Shown piece by piece: positions 464 through 27,099 of a stretch of 37,769 nucleotides of DNA. The notes below the pieces were generated by a model. It had not been told where the DNA came from and did not search any database. It saw only the letters and a list, made by a program, of their open reading frames with translations. How positions within the stretch are numbered: the stretch's first letter is position 1; every line of letters starts with the position of its first letter. The translations under genes were made by a program, and so were the position numbers. The DNA is from a virus: positions 1 through 37,769 of the IMG/VR virus record IMGVR_UViG_3300047440_000409; one strand, written 5' to 3'.

Positions 464-2770
464 GTGAGCACGGAGCGCACGCGAGCTCGCTACCGGCGCA
501 TCCCGCAGACGATGCGGCGCATGCCGGGCGGGCGTAGCGGCGGCACGGGCGGTGGTGGGCAAGCGCAGTCGGGGGTGGAGGCGCTGCTGGGGCTGAGCGG
601 GTTTTCGGCGGCTGACTTTTTCCAGACTGCGGTGGGCGGTGGAGAGGCTGGCGTGGCGAGTGGGTTTGGGCTGGCGTTCATTTATCGGCCGCGTTTGTTG
701 ATCACGGGTACTACCTCGATGGGTGGTCGCGTGAGCGGCGCGTCCGGGTTTCTGCAGTATCACTCGGCGGCCGGAATCCAGATGGCGGCAACGAGCTCGG
801 TTCCGGCTACGGTCTTCTCGAAGGGTCCGATACACACGACGTCGATCCTTGGCAAGGTCTGCTTGTGGATCGGCATCGACAACGGTTCCGCGCTTCGGGT
901 CCACCAGCATCGCGCCGAGCCCTTCGACATCCCCACGCCCATCGTCGGCTACACGCCTGCAGCGTCCAACACCATGTTGGGCAGGTCCTCTGCGACTGCG
1001 CCATACACAGACGGCGACATCATCGCAATGGTCCAGTTTCGCGGCACGCCGACGCAAGCCCAGCTCGAGGCGTTTGCGGACGCGACGCGCGCACGCGGCG
1101 ACTTCCCCGAGTCTGCAGACGGCATGCAGATCACGCACCGCGCATCGCTACGCGACGAGCTACGCGGCACCGTCGTGGTCGACGGGCAGACGGCACCGGC
1201 GCAGCTGACAGACACGATCACGCGCGCGCCGGTCGATGCGCTCGCGCGGCAGGGCTCGCCTGTGGTGCGCGTGATTGACCCGGCGATCGATGGGCGCCGG
1301 ACGCTGGGGGCGATGGGGTTTAGTGCGGCGAACAGATTCCTGACGGCAGTTGATCCGCTGGGCATGGTGGGTGCTGCTGCGCAGTGGAAGGCGTGGTTTG
1401 GCAGAATAGATACTCAGACCGTCAATGTTACCTGCTTCGAGTGCGCACAGTTTTCTCCAACATTGCGCGGGTGGACGTTCGAGCCAGGATCGTCGAATCT
1501 TTTTCGATTTTCCGTCTTCAACAATGGCGTGGTGAACCCGACCCCCTGGTATTCCGTGTCACCTCTTTTCGGCAGACCAGCGCTGTTTGTCGGGGTGACG
1601 ACCGGCAGCGTCGTTCGCCTCTACGTGGACGATGGCAGCGGTCTTGTTCAAGCTGGCGCCGACGCTCCGTCCACGGGATACGTCGTCCCTGTTGGCGCGC
1701 GGGGGTCGCTTGGTGCGCGCGAAGATGGGACGTTGCCGGCGCCCTTCGCCTCGGTGTTCGGCATCGCTGGAGGCGATGCGGAGCCGACGCTTGCCGAGCT
1801 GCAGCAGTTCGCCGCGACCGTGCGCGCGACGGGTCGCATGCCAGCGATCCCGATCCCTAGCAAGACTCGGTTCTCCCACGACCTCACCACCGACACGCTT
1901 GCCAGCGGCGGCGACGCAGTGCCGGCCGTGGTGCTGGACCGCGTGGGCACGGACCACCTGACGCGCGTCGGCGGCGTGTCGTCTGCCGGTGGCCTCACCC
2001 TTGCCCAGCGCACCGAGCGGCTGTGGAGCTACGAGACGAGTCCGATCGCCAACGGCTTCCTCATGTCGGCGTCGTATGGTGATGCGTTCGAGGCAGCCAA
2101 CGTCCAGATCGGCAACACGACAGGTTCGTGGTGGCTCACCGTGACCACGCAGCAGATTGCGACGAATGCCGGCGGCAAGCGGTTCGTCCACAAAAGCACG
2201 GGCAGCGCCGGCTTCCTCGGCTTCACGCTCAACGGCGCCAATTACCAGGTGCAGGCCGCCAACGGCGCTGTGATGACCACGGGCGGCGTCGCGATGATCT
2301 CCGCTTCTGATATTGGCAAGCTTGCCGTCCTGAGCCTCATGTGGGACGCAGCGCAGCAGAAGTTGCGCGTGTTTTACAAGCGCGCCGAGATCGGGCTCGG
2401 CACTGCATTTGCCAGCGGCTACACGCCGGACACCGGCAACCTGTGTTGGGGCGCCACGCGTGCGGGCGGCGGGTCGCCGCAGGACAACGCCAACCAGCTC
2501 GGCATGTGCGGCGGCAATGCCTTGCTCAGCGTTGCGGAGCTGTACGCGCAGCACGACGCCATTCTCGCGAACGACGCCGTCATTCAAGCGGTGCCCGGCA
2601 AGACTGCGCACCTGTGGAACGGTCGGCGCCTCGCTGGCGTGTCGACGTTCACGCCAGGTGTGACGACGATCCCGGACGAGCTCGGCGGTTCGCCCATGGT
2701 GCTGTCCAATGTCGTGGGCAGCGCCGCTATCACGCGCGCGGACATCTTCGCGCGCGCATTCGTAGTCTGA
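464..2770 (+). CDS. Tail fibre / receptor-binding protein with three LamG-like modules
   Basis: This 768-residue protein starts at GTG. After a basic, Gly-rich linker (residues 1-40) come three related segments of about 170-270 residues: roughly 46-215, 285-460 and 500-768. Segments 1 and 2 both begin with GFSAA followed by an aromatic stretch and end with a PT-x-A-(Q/E)-L helix. Segment 3 keeps the same order of strands (for example KLAVLSLMWDAAQQKLRVFY) and ends in a similar helix (LLSVAELYAQHD). The pattern resembles concanavalin/LamG-type jelly rolls, which bind glycans or proteins in many phage fibres. Its place between the tail genes and the lysis cassette fits a host-recognition protein. 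The fold assignment is by eye; the repetition is directly visible. Confidence 0.72.
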   Translation: MSTERTRARYRRIPQTMRRMPGGRSGGTGGGGQAQSGVEALLGLSGFSAADFFQTAVGGGEAGVASGFGLAFIYRPRLLITGTTSMGGRVSGASGFLQYHSAAGIQMAATSSVPATVFSKGPIHTTSILGKVCLWIGIDNGSALRVHQHRAEPFDIPTPIVGYTPAASNTMLGRSSATAPYTDGDIIAMVQFRGTPTQAQLEAFADATRARGDFPESADGMQITHRASLRDELRGTVVVDGQTAPAQLTDTITRAPVDALARQGSPVVRVIDPAIDGRRTLGAMGFSAANRFLTAVDPLGMVGAAAQWKAWFGRIDTQTVNVTCFECAQFSPTLRGWTFEPGSSNLFRFSVFNNGVVNPTPWYSVSPLFGRPALFVGVTTGSVVRLYVDDGSGLVQAGADAPSTGYVVPVGARGSLGAREDGTLPAPFASVFGIAGGDAEPTLAELQQFAATVRATGRMPAIPIPSKTRFSHDLTTDTLASGGDAVPAVVLDRVGTDHLTRVGGVSSAGGLTLAQRTERLWSYETSPIANGFLMSASYGDAFEAANVQIGNTTGSWWLTVTTQQIATNAGGKRFVHKSTGSAGFLGFTLNGANYQVQAANGAVMTTGGVAMISASDIGKLAVLSLMWDAAQQKLRVFYKRAEIGLGTAFASGYTPDTGNLCWGATRAGGGSPQDNANQLGMCGGNALLSVAELYAQHDAILANDAVIQAVPGKTAHLWNGRRLAGVSTFTPGVTTIPDELGGSPMVLSNVVGSAAITRADIFARAFVV

Positions 2771-2786
2771 CGGGGAGGGCTTCAAG

Positions 2787-3128
2787 ATGGAAAGACAGGA
2801 CATATCATCCGAGCAGCAAGAGCTGATCGACGCTTTCAAAAGCGAACAGGCCAGCACCTTCGATCCCGAAGTCGCGGCGGGTTCGAACCTCATCGAGGGC
2901 GACGACATCGAAGTCGACCACCTATACAAGATGCGCGTTATCGCGGGGCAGTGGGGCTGCGTGGCGTGTCTCATTCCCGAGTGGGGCGACTGCATCTTGC
3001 CGATCGGTCTTGTCTACTCTCGTGAGTCGACCCTCATCACCGACAGGGCCGGCCCCAACGGCGAGACGATGCCCATCTTCGACCCACCCGACGAGCCCGA
3101 CGTCGGCGGCGAAGGAGGTGCGCCATGA
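2787..3128 (+). CDS. Hypothetical protein, acidic
   Basis: This 113-residue soluble acidic protein follows the fibre gene and has a strong GGGGAGGG ribosome site 7 bases before the ATG. Three cysteines sit in the middle (GCVACLIPEWGDC), and the C-terminus is rich in Pro, Asp and Gly. Its stop overlaps the next start (ATGA), so the two are co-translated. I do not recognise a family. The position suggests a fibre chaperone or lysis-region accessory protein, but nothing in the sequence proves it. Confidence 0.55.
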   Translation: MERQDISSEQQELIDAFKSEQASTFDPEVAAGSNLIEGDDIEVDHLYKMRVIAGQWGCVACLIPEWGDCILPIGLVYSRESTLITDRAGPNGETMPIFDPPDEPDVGGEGGAP

Positions 3129-3346
3129 GCGAGCAGCCCGATCTCTCCGCGTTTGGTTTCGGCTGGCACGTCAGCGCCGCGAAGTGTCTGCACTGCAGGC
3201 GCTATATCAAGTTCACGCTGACACGTATTCCGTGTGAACAAGAGCTCACGTGCGGCGCTTGCAAGGCTCACTGGCTTCTGATCGCGGAAAGCGAGAGTCC
3301 TGGATACAGGGTGCGGATAGAGCCGCGAAACAAGGTGTTGTCATGA
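3125..3346 (+). CDS. Small zinc-ribbon-like protein
   Basis: This 73-residue protein has two CxxC knuckles (CLHC near residue 21 and CGAC near residue 43) spaced as in a zinc ribbon. There is no membrane segment. It overlaps its upstream neighbour by four bases and the next gene by four bases. The function is unknown; proteins of this size with one zinc ribbon often bind nucleic acid or a protein partner. Confidence 0.6.
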   Translation: MSEQPDLSAFGFGWHVSAAKCLHCRRYIKFTLTRIPCEQELTCGACKAHWLLIAESESPGYRVRIEPRNKVLS

Positions 3347-3489
3347 CCGATCAGAAGAAGGAGAAGAAGCCGCACAGCCTCCAGGACGCCCTGCGCGACG
3401 CGCTCAAGCGCCTGCCCCATGACCAGCAGCAGCGCGTACGCAAGGTGCTGCATGAAAAGGGCGTGCTCAAAGACGTCAAGGGCGAGTGA
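3343..3489 (+). CDS. Small basic hypothetical protein
   Basis: This 48-residue protein is highly charged (MTDQKKEKKPH near the N-terminus) and mostly helical. I chose the ATG that overlaps the upstream stop, rather than a longer in-frame start inside the previous gene, because that overlap is the rule in this genome. Its own stop overlaps the GTG of the next gene. The function is unknown. Confidence 0.5.
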   Translation: MTDQKKEKKPHSLQDALRDALKRLPHDQQQRVRKVLHEKGVLKDVKGE

Positions 3490-4088
3490 CGTGGTGGGCC
3501 CAGAACGGCGACACGGTAGGCAAGGCAGTGGCGCTCGCGCTGACTGCCGGTCTGACGGCGCTGGCGGGCCACCTCAATGGCAAGAACACGCGCGCTCTGA
3601 AGGCCGCAGAGGTCGCGACGCCGCCGACTGTCCCGCCCAAGGCGCCGCCCGCTCTGCCCATGCGCCCGAGCATGAGCCGCGAGGTGGACCTGTCGGCCGT
3701 GCGCATTCAGCTGTCGCGTGCGCTCTTGGAGCTGGACGAGCGCGATGCAGCCTTGCGGCGCGTCCGGGCCACCGCCGAGGAGGACATACGCCGGCAGCGC
3801 GCGACCATCGACCAGCTCGAGACCGAGCTCCGGCGCAGTGCGGCGGCGCTGACCGAGGAGCGTGGGCGGGCCGAGGCGTCGCACGCCGAGAACGTTGCGC
3901 TGATGCGTCAGATCCAGGGAGGCTCCTATGCTCGCGCAACTGACCCCAGAACAGTCCGAGGCGCTGCTCACGGCGCTGCTCCTGATCGTGACCGCGCTGG
4001 CGGCGCTGTTGACGACGTTCGCCGTGACGCTTGGCCGCAAGGTGGTGAGACACCTTTCCGCGCTCAGCGGCGTCCAGGTGAGCGTTGA
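3486..4088 (+). CDS. Membrane-anchored coiled-coil protein, possible inner-membrane spanin
   Basis: The GTG start overlaps the previous stop. Residues about 11-30 form one hydrophobic segment, followed by a Pro-rich linker and a long coiled coil (about 66-147) of the heptad type seen in Rz-like spanins. It sits directly before the holin gene. The last 50 or so residues overlap the holin gene in another frame for 161 bases. They are Arg/Gly/Asp-rich like a shadow translation, so only about residues 1-147 look selected as protein. The spanin role is inferred from topology and neighbours; it could also be an unrelated lysis regulator. Confidence 0.55.
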   Translation: MTWWAQNGDTVGKAVALALTAGLTALAGHLNGKNTRALKAAEVATPPTVPPKAPPALPMRPSMSREVDLSAVRIQLSRALLELDERDAALRRVRATAEEDIRRQRATIDQLETELRRSAAALTEERGRAEASHAENVALMRQIQGGSYARATDPRTVRGAAHGAAPDRDRAGGAVDDVRRDAWPQGGETPFRAQRRPGER

Positions 4089-4431
4089 GCAGCAGCTCAG
4101 GGTCGACTCGGCCATCGCAGCCGGCGTCGCCTACGCCGAGGAGCAGGCGCGCAAGTTCGCGCGTGAGCTCATCGTCGAGGGTCCGCGCACGGGCGAGGAG
4201 AAGCTCGAGGTCGCCAAGACGGCTGCGCGCAGCATCGCGCCGGCTGCGCTCGCCAGCGTCAACGAGCAGCAGCTGGGCATTCTCACCGAGGCCAAGTTGT
4301 CATCGCTGCGCCCGTCACAGGCGCCGCCTGGGAGCGTGCCGCCGTCGTTCGTGCCGAAGCTTCCGGCGCCGCCCGTCTTCACCACGCTCGAGGCGCGCCC
4401 GACACCCGTGCCGCCGAGGCGTAACCCATGA
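3928..4431 (+). CDS. Holin, LLH-type
   Basis: This 167-residue protein has one strong N-terminal membrane helix (about residues 12-34, LLTALLLIVTALAALLTTFA). An amphipathic region follows with the pattern AGVAYAEEQARKF and a downstream EEKLEVAKTAARS, which matches the layout of the LLH holin superfamily (a membrane helix, then an AVxYAEQ-like helix). The C-terminus is a Pro-rich tail. A GGAGG ribosome site lies 6 bases before the ATG. Holins form the membrane lesion that releases endolysin, and the endolysin here lacks a signal peptide, so a holin is needed. The start lies inside the previous gene, an unusually long overlap. Confidence 0.65.
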   Translation: MLAQLTPEQSEALLTALLLIVTALAALLTTFAVTLGRKVVRHLSALSGVQVSVEQQLRVDSAIAAGVAYAEEQARKFARELIVEGPRTGEEKLEVAKTAARSIAPAALASVNEQQLGILTEAKLSSLRPSQAPPGSVPPSFVPKLPAPPVFTTLEARPTPVPPRRNP

Positions 4432-17117: not shown

Positions 17118-17732
17118 TCACCTGTAGCGAGGCTGCCTCTGCGGAGTGGACTTGTGAGGAGGCTTCGCACGCTTCTTTTTGAAGTCTTCGCTCTTTGCTT
17201 CCACTGGTTCGTACGCTTTTTCGAGCTGTTTCTCGACGCGCTTGGCCAGCTCTCGGTTCTCCGCAAGCTCCTCTGCATACCTGGACGGCTTGAGCTTATT
17301 GCGGAGCAGGAACAGGTAGGTCTCGTAGAAGTTAGCGTCGGGCTCGAGATTGATGGGAGGCAAGGTGTCCCTGAGATTGGTCATCTCCAACTCAGTGATG
17401 TCCTTGGGAGCAATGGGACTGTTGAGAAACTCTTCGAGCGCCTCGGCGCATCGGTCGCGATGAATCGTCATCTCCGATTGCTTGTCGAGGTGTCCCTTGG
17501 GTAGCCCAAGCACCCGCTCGACCTCGCGACGATTGCGCGCCGCCACGGCCGTCTTTCCGTTGAAGGCTCCCTTGCCGCTGCACCAGTCAGAGACGGTTGC
17601 CTGGCGGATGCCCATCTTGCGCGCGAGCTTTGCTTTATCGAGCCCCAGCCGTTCGAGCTCTACCTCGAGGTATTGCCCCGGAGTCAGAATCATCTCGGCG
17701 TAGTCTGCGGGCCGCACGTACACCACGTCCAT
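17118..17732 (-). CDS. CI-like phage repressor (XRE helix-turn-helix)
   Basis: This 204-residue protein has an N-terminal helix-turn-helix at about residues 18-60 (LDKAKLARKMGIRQATVSDW) of the Cro/CI/HigA type. The remaining 140 residues are helical, with a long charged coiled coil and a basic tail. There is no LexA-like peptidase domain (no AG cleavage site, Ser or Lys catalytic motif), so RecA-stimulated self-cleavage is unlikely. The gene lies divergent to a Cro-like gene with matching operators in the gap. The ATG directly abuts operator O2 and lacks a ribosome site, as with a leaderless message. Confidence 0.8.
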   Translation of the reverse strand: MDVVYVRPADYAEMILTPGQYLEVELERLGLDKAKLARKMGIRQATVSDWCSGKGAFNGKTAVAARNRREVERVLGLPKGHLDKQSEMTIHRDRCAEALEEFLNSPIAPKDITELEMTNLRDTLPPINLEPDANFYETYLFLLRNKLKPSRYAEELAENRELAKRVEKQLEKAYEPVEAKSEDFKKKRAKPPHKSTPQRQPRYR

Positions 17733-17778: not shown

Positions 17779-17807
17779 TTGCTTTTCATACGGAAAGCGC
17801 ATACGTT
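17779..17807 (+). promoter_or_regulatory. Rightward early promoter with operator O3
   Basis: ATACGGAAAGCGCAT (17788-17802) is the third copy of the operator. TTGCTT (17779-17784) is a possible -35, and CATACG or ATACGT near 17800-17806 a weak -10. The ATG of the Cro-like gene follows at 17815 with no ribosome site between. Repressor binding would shut off the replication region. Confidence 0.55.
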
Positions 17808-17814
17808 TTTCGTG

Positions 17815-18033
17815 ATGGACTTTCCGACGTGGCTGAAACAGCAACCGCACGGCGCACTTACGCGAGTGTGGCGCGACAGCGGTGTTTCTTGGCACAGCGT
17901 CAATCGCGCGAAGCGGCACAAGGTCGGCCTCAAGGTCGCTGTGTTGATTTCGCGCGCGACAGGCGGCGCTGTCTCTGTTGCTGAGCTGACCGACTGCGAT
18001 GCGCTCGACACCGAGCCTCGCCGCGTCGCCTAA
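17815..18033 (+). CDS. Cro-like regulator
   Basis: This 72-residue protein has one helix-turn-helix (about residues 12-45, ALTRVWRDSGVSWHSVNRAK) and the SVAELT ending common in phage Cro/YdaS-type proteins. It is the first gene of the rightward early transcript and divergent to the repressor. Its expected role is to bind the same operators and favour lytic growth. I chose the ATG after the promoter; the 12 extra in-frame residues upstream run through operator O3. Confidence 0.72.
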   Translation: MDFPTWLKQQPHGALTRVWRDSGVSWHSVNRAKRHKVGLKVAVLISRATGGAVSVAELTDCDALDTEPRRVA

Positions 18034-18473: not shown

Positions 18474-18711
18474 CACGCGCGCCATCCTCCCCGGCCACCG
18501 CGTGGTGCTGGTCGATGCCTCAGGCCGCCTGGTCCGCCAGCGTGGGCGCGTCTTGCGCGGCCTGGTGCTGTCGGTCGATGTCTGGGACGTGGCGCTGGTC
18601 GAGCTCGCGCGCTCGGGCGAGAAGGTGACGCGCGGGCTGCGCTTCCTTCGCCGCTGTCCTGAGCTGGCCTTTTGCCGGCCTGCGCTGCGACTGGCGCCGG
18701 GGGCAGCATGA
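18466..18711 (+). CDS. Hypothetical early protein, small beta-rich domain
   Basis: This 81-residue protein has alternating strands (HRVVLVDASGRLV, GLVLSVDVWDVALVEL) suggesting a small beta-barrel. No motif is recognised. Its stop overlaps the ATG of an HTH gene. Confidence 0.5.
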   Translation: MSDTRAILPGHRVVLVDASGRLVRQRGRVLRGLVLSVDVWDVALVELARSGEKVTRGLRFLRRCPELAFCRPALRLAPGAA

Positions 18712-18950
18712 TGCGCCCTATCCCCGGCCTCGCAGAGCGCGTCGGCGCGCGCATCCGTGAGCTCAGGCTGGACGCCGAGATGTCGCAGCGGCAGCTGGCC
18801 GACCGCGTTGGCCTGCACCGGCCGGTCATGGGCAGGATCGAGCGCGGCCTCCATCAAACAGACCTGCACACCATTGCGCGCATCGCCCATGCGCTCGAGC
18901 TGGACCTGCTCACGGTACTGGCGCCGTGCCTCGACCAGGAGGGCGTATGA
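18708..18950 (+). CDS. XRE-family helix-turn-helix regulator
   Basis: This 80-residue protein is essentially one HTH_3 domain: LAERVGARIRELRLDAEMSQ, then QLADRVGLHRPVMGRIERG and HTIARIAHALELDL. It is a DNA-binding regulator of the second rank, downstream of the Cro-like gene. Possible targets are the late promoter or the immunity operators. Tandem ATG codons (18708 and 18711) leave the start uncertain by one residue. Confidence 0.82.
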   Translation: MMRPIPGLAERVGARIRELRLDAEMSQRQLADRVGLHRPVMGRIERGLHQTDLHTIARIAHALELDLLTVLAPCLDQEGV

Positions 18951-19589: not shown

Positions 19590-19664
19590 ATGTCCGACGT
19601 TCATACAGGGTCGCGCGCGTCTGACTGGCCTCGGCTGAAAGCGGGGGAGCAGTGCACGCCGTGA
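19590..19664 (+). CDS. Possible 24-residue leader peptide before the helicase gene
   Basis: ATG at 19590 opens a 24-residue frame (MSDVHTGSRASDWPRLKAGE and four more) whose TGA overlaps a GTG of the helicase gene at 19661. The overlap pattern is like other coupled genes here, but the frame is very short and may be chance. Confidence 0.25.
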   Translation: MSDVHTGSRASDWPRLKAGEQCTP

Positions 19665-21208
19665 AGCAGGCTCATCCGAGCAATGGCGGCGGCAGCCATG
19701 TCAGTCGCGTCCAGCGGGCCGAGCCGCCGCCGCTCTGCGACCTCGAGTCGGAGCGGACGTTTCTGTGCTCGTGCATCACGAAGTATCCGGAGCTCATCCT
19801 CGAGAGTGGGCTGGCCGCGCACGACTTCTACTCGGGCGCGAACGAGACCGTGTTCGCGGCGCTGCTCCATCTGGTTGCCAACGGCATCGAGGTCAGCGAC
19901 CTGACGCTGCAGAGTCGGCTGCGCGACGCCGGTCTGCTCGGCTCGGTGGGCGGCGGCGAGTACATCGAATCGCTGGTCGCCGTTATCCCCGATCGCAAGC
20001 ACGACTTCATACGGCTGCGCCGGCTGGCGCGACAGCGGGAGCTTCAGCAGATTGGGCGCTCTCTGGGCGCTGCGGGCGGCGACGAGTTCCACTCCCTGTG
20101 CCTGCGCTTCGGCGCCAAACAGCGCGAGGTCGACGCCCTCGTTGGGGAGCGGCAGGCGCCGCCGTACATGCTGCTCGGTGAGTTCTTCGAGCGCGAGGTG
20201 CGGCCGATTGGCGAGCGGCTGTCGATGGGGTTCGCGTCGCTTGACGCTTCGATGCGTGGTGGCCTGCCGCCGCGCCAGCTGATTGCGCTACTCGGGGCGC
20301 CTGGCTCGCGCAAGACGAGTCTGGCCACGTACTGGGCGGACCTGTGGGAGCGGGCGGGCTACGCGGTGGTGTTTCTGGCGGGCGACGAGGCGGGCTCCAA
20401 GATTGCCATTCGCCTGGGGCAGCTGGCAGGGGTCTCACGCGACGGCATCGAGGCGGAGGGCGACGAGGGCGACGCAAGCCGCGCCTGTGCCGTGGCGCAG
20501 CTTCGAGGGCGGCGCATCGTGCTGCTGGACCCGCGCGTGATGCAGGGGACCACGACCATCGAGACTGCCGAGCGCGTGCTCCTGCACCTTGCTGGCGACC
20601 GGCCGCGCGTGCTGATGATCGACTCGCTGCAGAGCGTGTTCACGGAGGCCTCGTTCACGGCGGCGGATGAGCGCGAGCGCATCACACTGGGCATCAACCT
20701 GTGTCGCGGGATTGCAGACCGCGGCGCCATCGTCGTGGCCATCAGCGAGATGTCGCGCGCGGGCTATCGCACGGGGGACCGCTCGAGTGACGTCTCGGTG
20801 CTTGCTGCTGCCAAGGAGAGCGGGCGTGTGGAGTATGCGGCGGACTTGCTGATGGGGGCGCGCCCGGTGCTCGAGGAGCCGCTGCTGATGGACCTCGAGA
20901 TCGGTAAGTCGCGACCTGGAGACAAGCTCGAGCTGCGGCTGAAGTTTGACCGCGACCGCGCGTCCTTTGCCGAAACTGCGGCGCCCTTGCGCGACCAGGT
21001 GCAGGGGCAGGCGCAGCGTCGGCTGGACAAGGGCAAGGAGCGCGTGCGGGCGGTGCTGCAGGAGCACCACGACCTACACAGTTCGCGCGAGGTGCTGGCC
21101 CACTGCGACGGCACGCGGTGGGTCAACCTCGAAGCCTTCAACGAGATGCTCAAGCATGGCGAGGTGGTCCGTGTTGGGAAGGCCTTCCGTACGGTGGTGG
21201 GGACATGA
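19652..21208 (+). CDS. DnaB-like replicative DNA helicase
   Basis: This helicase of about 518 residues has an N-terminal DnaB-type helical domain (about 29-125, LESERTFLCSCITKYPELIL) and a RecA-like motor with Walker A GAPGSRKTS (215-223) and Walker B VLMIDSLQ (320-327). A C-terminal winged-helix-like tail of about 80 residues follows, ending EMLKHGEVVRVGKAFRTV. It unwinds DNA at the replication fork and should recruit host primase and polymerase, since none is encoded here. Two GTG starts (19652 and 19661) are possible; the second would couple to the upstream mini-frame. The origin-like repeat array begins right after this gene. Confidence 0.88.
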   Translation: MHAVKQAHPSNGGGSHVSRVQRAEPPPLCDLESERTFLCSCITKYPELILESGLAAHDFYSGANETVFAALLHLVANGIEVSDLTLQSRLRDAGLLGSVGGGEYIESLVAVIPDRKHDFIRLRRLARQRELQQIGRSLGAAGGDEFHSLCLRFGAKQREVDALVGERQAPPYMLLGEFFEREVRPIGERLSMGFASLDASMRGGLPPRQLIALLGAPGSRKTSLATYWADLWERAGYAVVFLAGDEAGSKIAIRLGQLAGVSRDGIEAEGDEGDASRACAVAQLRGRRIVLLDPRVMQGTTTIETAERVLLHLAGDRPRVLMIDSLQSVFTEASFTAADERERITLGINLCRGIADRGAIVVAISEMSRAGYRTGDRSSDVSVLAAAKESGRVEYAADLLMGARPVLEEPLLMDLEIGKSRPGDKLELRLKFDRDRASFAETAAPLRDQVQGQAQRRLDKGKERVRAVLQEHHDLHSSREVLAHCDGTRWVNLEAFNEMLKHGEVVRVGKAFRTVVGT

Positions 21209-21531
21209 GACACGCACACAACACAGTGTCCTGTTTCGGGGCGTTTCGGAGTGTTTCGAAACGTTTCGAAACGGGCCATCTGAGCGCGTTTCTCGCCCGT
21301 TCTCCGACCACCGGAGGTGGTCGAAACGGCCGAAACGCCTCAGCACAAGGCCGAAACACCGGTGTTTTTACAAATGTGCCAATCGAAACGCACCGAAACG
21401 GCCGAAACACCGGCAAATATGCGATCGAAACGCTGCGGCCCAGCGCGAACTGCGAGGACGAGAGCCGAGCCATGAGTGATCAGCCAAAACGCGCTCCGGG
21501 ACTGCTTCAGCGCGATGGGGTGGCGCCATGA
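21205..21531 (+). CDS. Doubtful reading frame across the origin-like repeats
   Basis: A 108-residue frame starts with ATGA overlap to the helicase and ends overlapping the next gene. Its protein is low in complexity (GRNGRNASAQGRNTG and the like) because it translates the DNA hexamer repeats. The 10-base period of those repeats is not a multiple of three, which argues that selection acts on DNA rather than protein. A short frame within it (ATG 21472, 19 residues) is an alternative gene. Confidence 0.25.
   Translation: MRHAHNTVSCFGAFRSVSKRFETGHLSAFLARSPTTGGGRNGRNASAQGRNTGVFTNVPIETHRNGRNTGKYAIETLRPSANCEDESRAMSDQPKRAPGLLQRDGVAP
21233..21431. repeat. CGAAAC/GTTTCG hexamer array, probable replication origin
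   Basis: GTTTCG occurs at 21233, 21243, 21253 and 21263, an exact 10-base period. CGAAAC occurs at 21257, 21267, 21322, 21331, 21352, 21384, 21394, 21403 and 21426, mostly 9-10 bases or a multiple apart. The left block faces one way and the right block the other. In the left block two 10-bp palindromes GTTTCGAAAC stand in direct tandem (21253-21272). A 14-bp palindrome AAACACCGGTGTTT lies at 21354-21367, next to AT-richer DNA. Phased repeats beside a replicative helicase gene are the hallmark of iteron-type origins. Confidence 0.65.
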
Positions 21532-21761
21532 CCCCGGGTCAGCGCGTGCTCTATCGCGTGCGTCGCCTTGGCGAGGATCCTCGGAGGCGCTCGCGTGGCG
21601 AGTACGTGGTGCTTGGCGTGGGCACGGTCCGTTCCAGCAAGCCACTTGAGCCGAGCGGCGGGTGCATGTACCAGGTCGAGCGCGACGACGGCACTGCGGT
21701 CACGTTCGACGGCATCGGCCTCTACCGGCACGAGGTGCGCGCACTGGGGGGCAAGCCATGA
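21528..21761 (+). CDS. Small hypothetical protein, beta-rich
   Basis: This 77-residue protein (MTPGQRVLYRVRRLGEDPRR) has a pattern of short strands and loops reminiscent of a small SH3-like barrel: GEYVVLGVGTV, then MYQVERDDGTAVTFDGI. It overlaps both neighbours. SH3-like small phage proteins often bind DNA or RNA ends; here this is inference. Confidence 0.5.
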   Translation: MTPGQRVLYRVRRLGEDPRRRSRGEYVVLGVGTVRSSKPLEPSGGCMYQVERDDGTAVTFDGIGLYRHEVRALGGKP

Positions 21762-21946
21762 CCCGTCAGTTTCTCAACAAGCCGCCGTGTCTTGAGTGCG
21801 GCAAGGCCGCCGAGATGGGCCTCGCGTCGGACGGGCGCCAGCTCTGGCACTGCATTGCGTGCGCGAAGATGCTTGCGGTGAAACTCAAGCTCCCGGCGGT
21901 CGCGGCTGCAGCGCACGACGCAGAGCGGGAACGGAGTCAGCGATGA
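21758..21946 (+). CDS. Small zinc-ribbon protein
   Basis: This 62-residue protein has CLEC (near residue 11) and CIAC (near residue 32), a single zinc ribbon, followed by a helical Ala-rich end. The start and stop overlap the neighbouring genes. Possible nucleic-acid-binding cofactor of the replication module. Confidence 0.55.
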   Translation: MTRQFLNKPPCLECGKAAEMGLASDGRQLWHCIACAKMLAVKLKLPAVAAAAHDAERERSQR

Positions 21947-22593
21947 CCCGCTACGTCCTCGGCCTCGACCAAGCCTCCACCAGCGGCTGGGGCATCGCCC
22001 CGGAGCGCGGCCCGGTCCTGCGCCACGGCCTGGCCAGGAACGCCCAGGAGCGCCTCGCGGTGGTCCGGCTGGCCCTCGAGTACGTCGGCGGCGATGCGAG
22101 GCTCCTGTGGGCCGTACTAGAGCAGCACGACCACTTTCCGCTGGAGCGCCTCGGCAAGCACGACAAGACCACGCCGCGGCAGGGCAAGGGCTTTGTCCAG
22201 CGCGGTCCCAAGCAGATTGCTGGGCTGCACAAAGCCGCCGGCCGCTGGCTCGAGCAGCTGGAGCTGGCGGGCGTGCCGGACGCGCATGTCTCGGAGGTCA
22301 GGCCCACCACGTGGCGCGCACGCATCCACGGCGTGACCAAGGGCGACCAGATCAAGCAGGCGGCCATCGACTGGGCCAGTGCGCGGGCCGGCGAGCTCAT
22401 CACGCAGCACGACCACGCCGAGGGCTACTGCGTCACTGCGTGGGCCGCGCTCGATGGGTTCGCCCGGTATGACCACGAGCTTGCCGTGGCGCGCATCGGC
22501 GCACGGGACAAGCGCGGCCAGGCCAAGCAACTCGGCCTGCCGGACATGCCGGCGCACAAAGCAGTCCAACGCAGTAGCAGCGGGAGGTTCTGA
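21943..22593 (+). CDS. RuvC-like Holliday junction resolvase
   Basis: This 216-residue protein has the RNase H-like fold signature of RuvC. Asp9 sits in VLGLDQASTSGWGI, Glu60 in LWAVLEQHDHF, and a C-terminal acidic pair near HDHAEGYCVTAWAA (Asp157/Glu160). The stretch VRPTTWRARIHG followed by basic residues is also usual. RuvC family enzymes cut Holliday junctions symmetrically, resolving branched phage DNA before packaging. It is separate from the endonuclease VII gene in the other operon, so the phage has two resolvases. Confidence 0.8.
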   Translation: MTRYVLGLDQASTSGWGIAPERGPVLRHGLARNAQERLAVVRLALEYVGGDARLLWAVLEQHDHFPLERLGKHDKTTPRQGKGFVQRGPKQIAGLHKAAGRWLEQLELAGVPDAHVSEVRPTTWRARIHGVTKGDQIKQAAIDWASARAGELITQHDHAEGYCVTAWAALDGFARYDHELAVARIGARDKRGQAKQLGLPDMPAHKAVQRSSSGRF

Positions 22594-23714: not shown

Positions 23715-23978
23715 ATGTTGCGGCTCGACTTGCTCGCGCTCGACCTCACGCGCCGTCGCAGTTCGCGACCGCTGCGCGCTGTTGCGTTGGAGATCGGCAT
23801 CAGCGCCGCAACACTCCTCCGCATCGAGAGCGGCAAGGGGCCTGACCTCGAGAGCTTTGCCAAGCTCTGCCGCTGGCTCGGTACCAACCCGAATCGATAT
23901 CTCGGGTTGACGGTGTCGTTCAACAGGACGGAGAAGGCGTTTCTCGGCGCGATCGAGCGCTACGTGGGGTCGCCATGA
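23715..23978 (+). CDS. XRE-family helix-turn-helix regulator
   Basis: This 87-residue protein has HTH_3 features: LRAVALEIGISAATLLRIES, GKGPDLESFAKLCRWLG and a short C-terminal extension. It starts two bases after the previous stop. As the last regulator before the late region, it is a candidate activator of the late promoter just downstream. Confidence 0.72.
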   Translation: MLRLDLLALDLTRRRSSRPLRAVALEIGISAATLLRIESGKGPDLESFAKLCRWLGTNPNRYLGLTVSFNRTEKAFLGAIERYVGSP

Positions 23979-24499: not shown

Positions 24500-25162
24500 G
24501 TGAAAACGATGCCACACGCGCGCGCGTCTACCGTCGCGACTGAGCCGTCCACCGCGTCTACAGCGGTTACGCCTGTAGATCCGCTCGCGTGCGTCCCGCG
24601 CACCGAGGGCCAGCGGCTCTTGCAGCACGTGCCTGGCACGCTCAACGCCATCGCGGCCAAGGTCCAAGCGAGCAAGCCGGCGGTCTCCACGTGGCGCATC
24701 GGCACGCGCACACCTGACATCAGCGCACGTCGACGCCTGTGGGCCGCGTTCGAGATCCCGATCGAGGCGTGGGAGTGCGTGCCGGGCGCGCTCGAGCCCG
24801 CTGCCGAACTCGACGGCGACCAGGGCGACGAGGACGAGGAAGCCGACGAGGACGACAGCGCCCATCACGAGCAGTCGATCCTCGACCACGTCAACCACCG
24901 GCTGCGGGCCGCGCGCAGGGTGGTGGTTGCGAAGGGACTCACCACCCGTGAGCGCATCCTGGCAAACGCCGACTACGACCGGGCCATCGCAGCGCGCGCC
25001 AAGTACCTACACGAGCAAGAGCTGCAAGAAGACCGCATCATCCGCCAGCACCCCAAGTGGCGCGAGCTCAGGGCGGTCATCATCGGCGTGCTGGTCAAAC
25101 ACCCTGCCGTGGCACGCGAAGTGGAGGCGGCGGTCAAGGCAAGCCTCGGAGACGACGAGTAA
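24500..25162 (+). CDS. terS: Terminase small subunit (putative)
   Basis: This 220-residue protein precedes the large terminase by 14 bases. Residues 38-92 form an HTH-type DNA-binding domain (LLQHVPGTLNAIAAKVQASK, then TWRIGTRTPDISARRRL). An acidic linker (105-125) and a helical region follow, where an oligomerisation coiled coil is expected. Small terminases recognise the packaging site and feed the large subunit. The start is GTG 24500 or ATG 24509; the promoter position favours the latter. Identity rests on position and architecture, since small terminases are poorly conserved. Confidence 0.7.
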   Translation: MKTMPHARASTVATEPSTASTAVTPVDPLACVPRTEGQRLLQHVPGTLNAIAAKVQASKPAVSTWRIGTRTPDISARRRLWAAFEIPIEAWECVPGALEPAAELDGDQGDEDEEADEDDSAHHEQSILDHVNHRLRAARRVVVAKGLTTRERILANADYDRAIAARAKYLHEQELQEDRIIRQHPKWRELRAVIIGVLVKHPAVAREVEAAVKASLGDDE

Positions 25163-26883: not shown

Positions 26884-27099
26884 GTGACACGCGGGCGACG
26901 GCAGCTGATCGCGCTCCTGCAGCACGTCCCGGCGCGTGAGGTGGCGGTCCGTGTGCACGTCACGAAGTCCTGTGTTTCTCGATGGCTATCGGGCTCGCGC
27001 ATCCCGTGCGAGCGGGCGCGTATCCTGCTCGAGGCGCACTTGCGGATCCCGGTGGAGGCGTGGCGCGTCTACCTTTCGCGGTTCGATAGACGCCCCTAG
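26884..27099 (+). CDS. HTH protein paralogous to the terminase small subunit N-domain
   Basis: This 71-residue protein starts at GTG. Residues 9-60 align with residues 39-91 of the small terminase: both have LLQHVP, then VS or VST before W, G-x-R-x-P, and IPVEAW or IPIEAW. Only the DNA-binding domain is kept. It is probably a free DNA-binding copy that may regulate packaging initiation or compete for the pac site. It lies between large terminase and portal, where no such gene is usual. Confidence 0.7.
   Translation: MTRGRRQLIALLQHVPAREVAVRVHVTKSCVSRWLSGSRIPCERARILLEAHLRIPVEAWRVYLSRFDRRP

Follow-up and report, generated by a model that had tools for sequence, protein, structure and literature searches.

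The window considered here, meaning the whole stretch of DNA that was analysed, is the complete IMG/VR virus record IMGVR_UViG_3300047440_000409, which is 37,769 bases long and has a GC content of 67%. It looks like the genome of a temperate tailed phage because it encodes an integrase, RecE/RecT-type recombination proteins, a large terminase, and helix-turn-helix (HTH) regulators (17118-17732, 18672-18950, and 23715-23978). The direction of the genes switches at about 17.7-18.7 kb. The plus strand at 19652..21208 carries the gene for a DnaB-family replicative helicase of 518 amino acids with a C-terminal extension, and 25 bp past its stop codon an array of short repeats begins. Small genes of unassigned function lie near the array at 21528-21946, and the gene at 21943-22593, which adjoins the array, is recognizable as RuvC-like by the motif GLDQASTSGWG only and has no match in Pfam or PHROG; relatives of this gene occupy the same place in two related loci (L001 and L020). 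Flanking the terminase gene, the segments 24500-25162 and 26884-27099 both encode a related HTH-like domain, as seen in their cross-matches to L001.

The CGAAAC/GTTTCG array

Thirteen copies of the hexamer lie within 199 bp (21233-21431), and the copies, the 10-base period and the palindromes described in an earlier sequence-only reading of this DNA are all present where that reading placed them. The left block (21233..21272, plus strand) consists of four GTTTCG iterons with an exact 10-bp period, at 21233, 21243, 21253, and 21263, the last two of which run into tandem palindromes, GTTTCGAAAC (21253-21262 and 21263-21272), that contribute CGAAAC copies at 21257 and 21267. The right block (21322..21431, minus strand) holds seven CGAAAC iterons, equivalent to GTTTCG on the minus strand, at 21322, 21331, 21352, 21384, 21394, 21403, and 21426, and these face the left block. 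Three further elements, assigned to neither strand, can be read from the sequence: a stem-loop between the two blocks, CGACCACC-GGA-GGTGGTCG (21305..21323); a 14-bp palindrome, AAACACCGGTGTTT (21354..21367); and the most A+T-rich stretch of the array, TGTTTTTACAAATGTGCCAATCG (21363..21385), which reaches an A+T fraction of 0.57 and is a possible melting site.

The density of the hexamer is exceptional for this genome. Counted over the whole record there are 26 copies, half of them in the 199-bp array and the other 13 spread over the remaining 37.5 kb, and dinucleotide shuffles of all 37,769 bp gave 17.8 ± 3.8 copies, which corresponds to about 0.1 expected in the array. Elsewhere in the record no hexamer of any kind occurs more than seven times per 250-bp window (1475 windows examined), compared with 13 here, and shuffles of the array region itself produced a maximum of six. 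The proposed enrichment is present, and the view that selection acts on the DNA is supported. A minus-strand open reading frame of 107 amino acids does span the array (21150-21473), but its codon-position GC is flat (0.60/0.59/0.56, compared with 0.73/0.47/0.86 for dnaB), and wholly different words stand at the same place in relatives; on these grounds a coding explanation is rejected, and the region does not look coding. The frame has no match in Pfam.

Nor is the hexamer a DnaA box, as the sequence-only reading had recognized. No copy of TTATNCACA occurs in the window array when up to one mismatch is allowed, which rules out an oriC-like origin built on DnaA boxes. The cumulative GC skew has no minimum at the array, a test that had been suggested for an origin and that says little in this genome because gene direction switches at about 17.7-18.7 kb.

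The helicase and its C-terminal tail

Assignment of the gene at 19652..21208 to the DnaB family is supported by Pfam matches above cut-off to the DnaB N-terminal domain (PF00772, 5.1e-10) and to DnaB_C (PF03796, 8.4e-10), and by a PHROG match to the DnaB-like helicases of phrog_19 (1.7e-31). In both Pfam and PDB comparisons the motor is of the DnaB/DnaB_C type and not of the SF3/AAA+ type (D5, MCM-like); a hexameric ring is expected from the family. DnaB chains in the PDB (2q6t, 6bbm, and 6t66) cover residues 25-448 only, leaving an extension of about 70 residues at the C-terminus that is absent from DnaB chains of known structure. The AlphaFold2 model of the full-length protein is poor (pLDDT 66.6), and its best Foldseek matches are nevertheless DnaB proteins.

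The tail itself (residues 443-518; 20978..21205, plus strand) is modelled better. From an 11-sequence alignment, AlphaFold2 gave a pLDDT of 87.9 and a helix-helix-helix-strand-strand order, which is predicted to form a winged helix with its recognition helix at about residues 489-501. Foldseek matched the tail weakly to PDB entries (best E 0.075), with winged helices dominating the top of the list. On the strength of this predicted fold, and of the covariation with the repeat word described below, the tail is a candidate iteron-binding domain and the helicase a candidate self-contained initiator.

Among the named phages of INPHARED the DnaB-with-tail type is absent, and only Staphylococcus phage DnaB proteins without a matching tail were found; two scans of GTDB genomes with helicase alignments returned no confirmed relative of the helicase.

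Arrays beside related helicases

Comparison drew on about 90 related loci distributed over two helicase families. A scan for the DNA pattern, blind to protein, led to L020, in which the same hexamer stands directly after a DnaB homologue (L088 is the contig of L020), and protein scans supplied further DnaB-type homologues. The output of the pattern scan was full of GTTTC-type microsatellites and of one large freshwater class, and L030 was excluded, with one copy in the second orientation. Among the classes with at least two copies in each orientation, three adjoin a helicase gene whose product has a winged-helix-like tail (L020/L088, L045, and L005) and one does not (L017/L062/L082).

In 14 DnaB-type loci, the window included, an array starts no more than about 45 bp past the helicase stop codon, and about nine different words are used: GTTTCG in the window and L088; GGTTCC in L083, L085, L090, L091, L092, and L182; GGTACC in L084; AGGTCC in L086; AACCTTGCC in L093; CTGCGG in L189; CAACAGT in L195; and TGTTCC in L198. 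The place of the array is therefore kept among relatives while its word changes. Iterons on the same strand mostly follow one another at steps of 8-12 bp, most commonly 10 bp, and the head of the array repeats this period in L088 (15, 25, and 35 bp after the stop) as well as in L083, L086, L189, and L198, where the words differ. Homologous arrays also carry a hairpin beside or between the iterons.

Presence of an array follows the tail. Arrays accompany 14 of 20 helicases with the extension and none of the five relatives whose sequence stops immediately past the RecA domain (L199-L203; Fisher p 0.009). Among the exceptions, the arrays of L191-L193 are displaced some 300-450 bp downstream, that of L197 lies within the reading frame, the array of L001 is weak at best, and L196 lacks one. 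The L197 array (4000-4260) is an iteron-like series of CGGCAC in a long reading frame, just past the helicase domain. The contig of L198 has a Toprim/AAA_25-type helicase gene (73-1389) whose product has a tail resembling a winged helix and whose stop codon precedes a GGTACCA array. A short DnaB-type helicase fragment (2770-3546) with a tail and its TGTTCC array follows 2 kb beyond; possibly one replication cassette has here been caught in the act of replacing another.

The word itself also changes with the tail. Core identity of the window helicase is 0.44 to L088, which shares its word, and 0.44-0.47 to L083-L086 and L182, which have other words, whereas tail identity is 0.41 to L088 and only 0.15-0.21 to the others. 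When core similarity is controlled for, tail and word correlate across the 14 loci (91 pairs) with a partial r of 0.40 (permutation p 0.008); when tail similarity is controlled for, core and word give 0.03. On these data alone the indication that the tail, and not the core, predicts the word in the DnaB-type family is suggestive, because the sample is small and the measure of word similarity crude.

These comparisons bear on the possibility that the array is an origin bound by a separate small phage protein or by a host protein, the helicase being recruited secondarily. A division of initiator and helicase is common in phages, as in lambda O and P, and the small genes of unassigned function at 21528-21946 could supply such a protein, as the sequence-only reading had proposed. 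Against this, PHROG and Pfam comparisons matched none of the nearby genes to a known initiator or loader, the RuvC-like neighbour is common to loci with and without the word of the window, and the word class follows the helicase tail and not its core. A separate initiator is thus unlikely; the array tracks the helicase and its C-terminal winged-helix extension, and the proposal of a small initiator encoded nearby is not supported.

A second group of explanations is addressed by loci that share neighbouring genes with the window. L002 encodes a repressor 96.6% identical to that of the window, a product 98.8% identical to that of 17779-18033, and an HTH protein with 67% identity, and the CGAAAC array is absent from it. 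The slot of the window helicase is taken in L002 by a primase-helicase of the SF3 D5 type, whose gene bears an array of its own, CTGTGGGGAC, at the 3' end, while the repressor and flanking genes remain, from which it follows that helicase and array were replaced together and their neighbours stayed. The 3' end of this SF3 D5-type gene reads through its own GTGGGGAC array (L002:4960-5212), which is both coding and repeat. An operator cluster for the phage repressor or another HTH regulator could be imagined from the three HTH genes at hand and from the existence of iteron-like operators elsewhere, but the array sits after a gene, the divergent promoters near 17.7-18.7 kb hold a single copy of the hexamer (18261), and L002, with its nearly identical repressor, contradicts a repressor operator; operator function of any such kind is extremely improbable.

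Packaging (pac/cos) or partition (centromere) sites would also be made of repeats. Direct-repeat arrays serve as ParR/TubR-type centromeres, and in two isolate proviruses GTTTCG/CGAAAC arrays lie between a gene with a helix-hairpin-helix (HHH) domain and the terminase gene. However, the array of the window follows the helicase; the terminase of L001 is 96% identical, yet L001 lacks the CGAAAC array, which contradicts a packaging site; and the phage encodes an integrase, with no ParA/ParB-type protein among about 20 proteins scanned. Taken together, a packaging or partition role for the window array is highly improbable. The arrays of the type found in the two proviruses (L062:10874-11046, L082:243-415, and L017:32-107) contain both orientations and, in those proviruses, are bounded by a helix-hairpin-helix/HTH gene and the gene for the large terminase subunit; their context is different and perhaps concerns packaging.

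Strong evidence for the same point comes from a sister family of Toprim+AAA_25 helicases. It was reached through the DNA pattern only, by way of L045, in which a CGAAAC array directly follows a Toprim_3+AAA_25 primase-helicase that is related to RSF1010 RepA; one protein of the family, P0006, matches RSF1010 RepA (1g8y, E 2.5e-5). Named relatives include Salicola phage CGphi29, Idiomarinaceae phage 1N2-2, and Alteromonas phages PB15 and XX1924, with the array words GGGACA, GGTACA, and GGTTCA. The 80 IMG/VR loci of the family yielded 54 nonredundant ones with at least five copies, to which 12 word classes were assigned from the arrays; no array was found at the relative ct76p945 or at some of the 80 loci (L110 and L168). 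The first iteron lies a median of 23 bp past the stop codon (range 2-56, n=50). Inverted repeats in the arrays are longer than those in the helicase gene itself. In a large class of freshwater phages (L005:4094-4270 and about 35 similar loci, e.g., L009, L014, and L022), the Toprim/AAA_25 helicases have a winged-helix-like tail, and TTTCGGTAA-type arrays overlap the end of the helicase gene.

Among 516 variable columns in the 54 loci, from which loci without a clear word (13 weak loci) were omitted, the 20 that share most information with word class (adjusted mutual information) are all located in residues 618-658 of 679, which form the winged helix of the tail, and the best is column 635. Because columns and words share ancestry, p values are approximate. 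The pair L113 and L127 provides an example, with cores 97% identical and tails that differ by Q/V at 635 and at three further positions of the helix segment compared: the L113 tail reads SAKQYIKPSSPGK and its word is GGTAAC, and the L127 tail reads SAKVYIKPSATGK and its word is GGAAC.

DnaA boxes (TTATNCACA) are enriched about 36-fold in the arrays of the AAA_25 family, with 64 in 18.1 kb of array regions compared with 29 in 294.7 kb elsewhere, and at least one occurs in 24 of the 54 loci. In part of the family (L104, L112, and L113) the helicase stop is separated from the iterons by tandem boxes, TTATCCACA, which are absent from DnaB-type arrays. The enrichment counts for the sister family only, because neither the window array nor the other 12 DnaB-type arrays tested contain a box.

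A putative initiator built on a DnaB ring

If a helicase reads its word through its tail domain, tail domain and word should change together from phage to phage, and in two helicase families they do. This covariation suggests that the winged helix of the helicase tail, and not another protein, sets iteron specificity. Theta replication of the phage very probably begins at the array, whose iterons would be recognized by the product of the helicase gene directly upstream, by means of a winged helix at the C-terminus of a DnaB-type ring helicase; an origin beside the helicase gene, as the sequence-only reading had supposed, is on computational grounds the best reading. For the window this rests on homology of plan, because the DnaB-type arrays are without DnaA boxes.

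The mechanism envisaged has three steps. Several helicase subunits would bind the phased iterons of both facing blocks through their C-terminal winged helices, the phasing placing several subunits on one face of the helix. The DNA between the blocks would then open at the A+T-rich stretch (21363-21385) and stem-loop (21305-21323), the facing blocks and the stem-loop bracketing the DNA that opens. Rings would finally be placed on the single strands at the origin, perhaps with no separate loader; the host primase (DnaG) would join through the retained DnaB N-terminal domain, and replication would be bidirectional.

Iteron initiators commonly control their own synthesis as well, and the array could be a site at which the bound tail exerts autoregulation or controls copy number, the origin being elsewhere. 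Such an arrangement is very unlikely: the array is 3' of the gene to be controlled, the arrays of the sister family contain clustered DnaA boxes, and the layout equals that of proven downstream origins (PMC7581432; PMC4234260).

In broader terms, we consider it rather probable that an origin-recognition winged helix was acquired by an SF4 ring helicase of the DnaB family, which thereby unites initiator, loader, and motor in a single polypeptide, that two RecA-fold families share this plan, and that their tails follow an amino-acid-to-iteron code that flips with few residues. Bacterial replication depends centrally on the loading of DnaB-type rings, a step believed to require separate initiators and loaders. 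The open-access literature yielded no account of a DnaB that carries an origin-binding domain, and such a protein, if the reading is true, would allow origin recognition and ring loading to be studied together in a one-protein system. Near-isogenic pairs, with 97% identical cores and different iterons, make the recognition code directly testable; the helicase tail would let origins be predicted in uncultured phages; and the origins would be mutually distinct, swapping as helicase-plus-array cassettes.

The placement of iterons directly 3' of an initiator-helicase gene, part of what had been called an unusual design, is already known; unusual is that the helicase is a DnaB. In SaPI Rep and SCCmec Cch2 the C-terminal part of the helicase recognizes short iterons directly 3' of its own gene, and two rings have been proposed (PMC7581432); the downstream iterons are shared with the window, as the C-terminal reading of iterons would be, although those helicases are described as DUF927-type and MCM/SF3-like, whereas the window motor is an SF4 RecA-fold ring of the DnaB type that retains the DnaB N-terminal domain. 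The alpha protein of phage P4 likewise unites helicase and origin recognition in one polypeptide, with a C-terminal winged helix that binds iterons (PMC4234260), but joins a Toprim primase to an SF3 helicase, whereas the window protein lacks a primase domain and is driven by an SF4 motor; in L002 the SF3 counterpart occupies the very slot of the window helicase. The pRN1 protein ORF904 is a helicase with a C-terminal winged helix and an origin 3' of its own gene, orf904 (PMC4234260), and differs in combining an AEP primase with an SF3 helicase and in having as origin a stem-loop of about 100 nt without iterons. RSF1010 also employs a RecA-fold hexameric helicase (RepA) at an iteron origin, but divides the work among separate polypeptides, with RepC recognizing the iterons, RepA serving as helicase, and RepB' as primase (PMC4234260). 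Bacterial DnaB proteins (2q6t, 6bbm, and 6t66) align over their whole length to residues 25-448 of the window helicase; their chains end where the winged-helix extension begins, and they need separate initiators and loaders. By plan, the window system would work like the initiators P4 alpha, SaPI Rep, Cch2, and pRN1, and its helicase stands outside their helicase families because its motor is DnaB-type.
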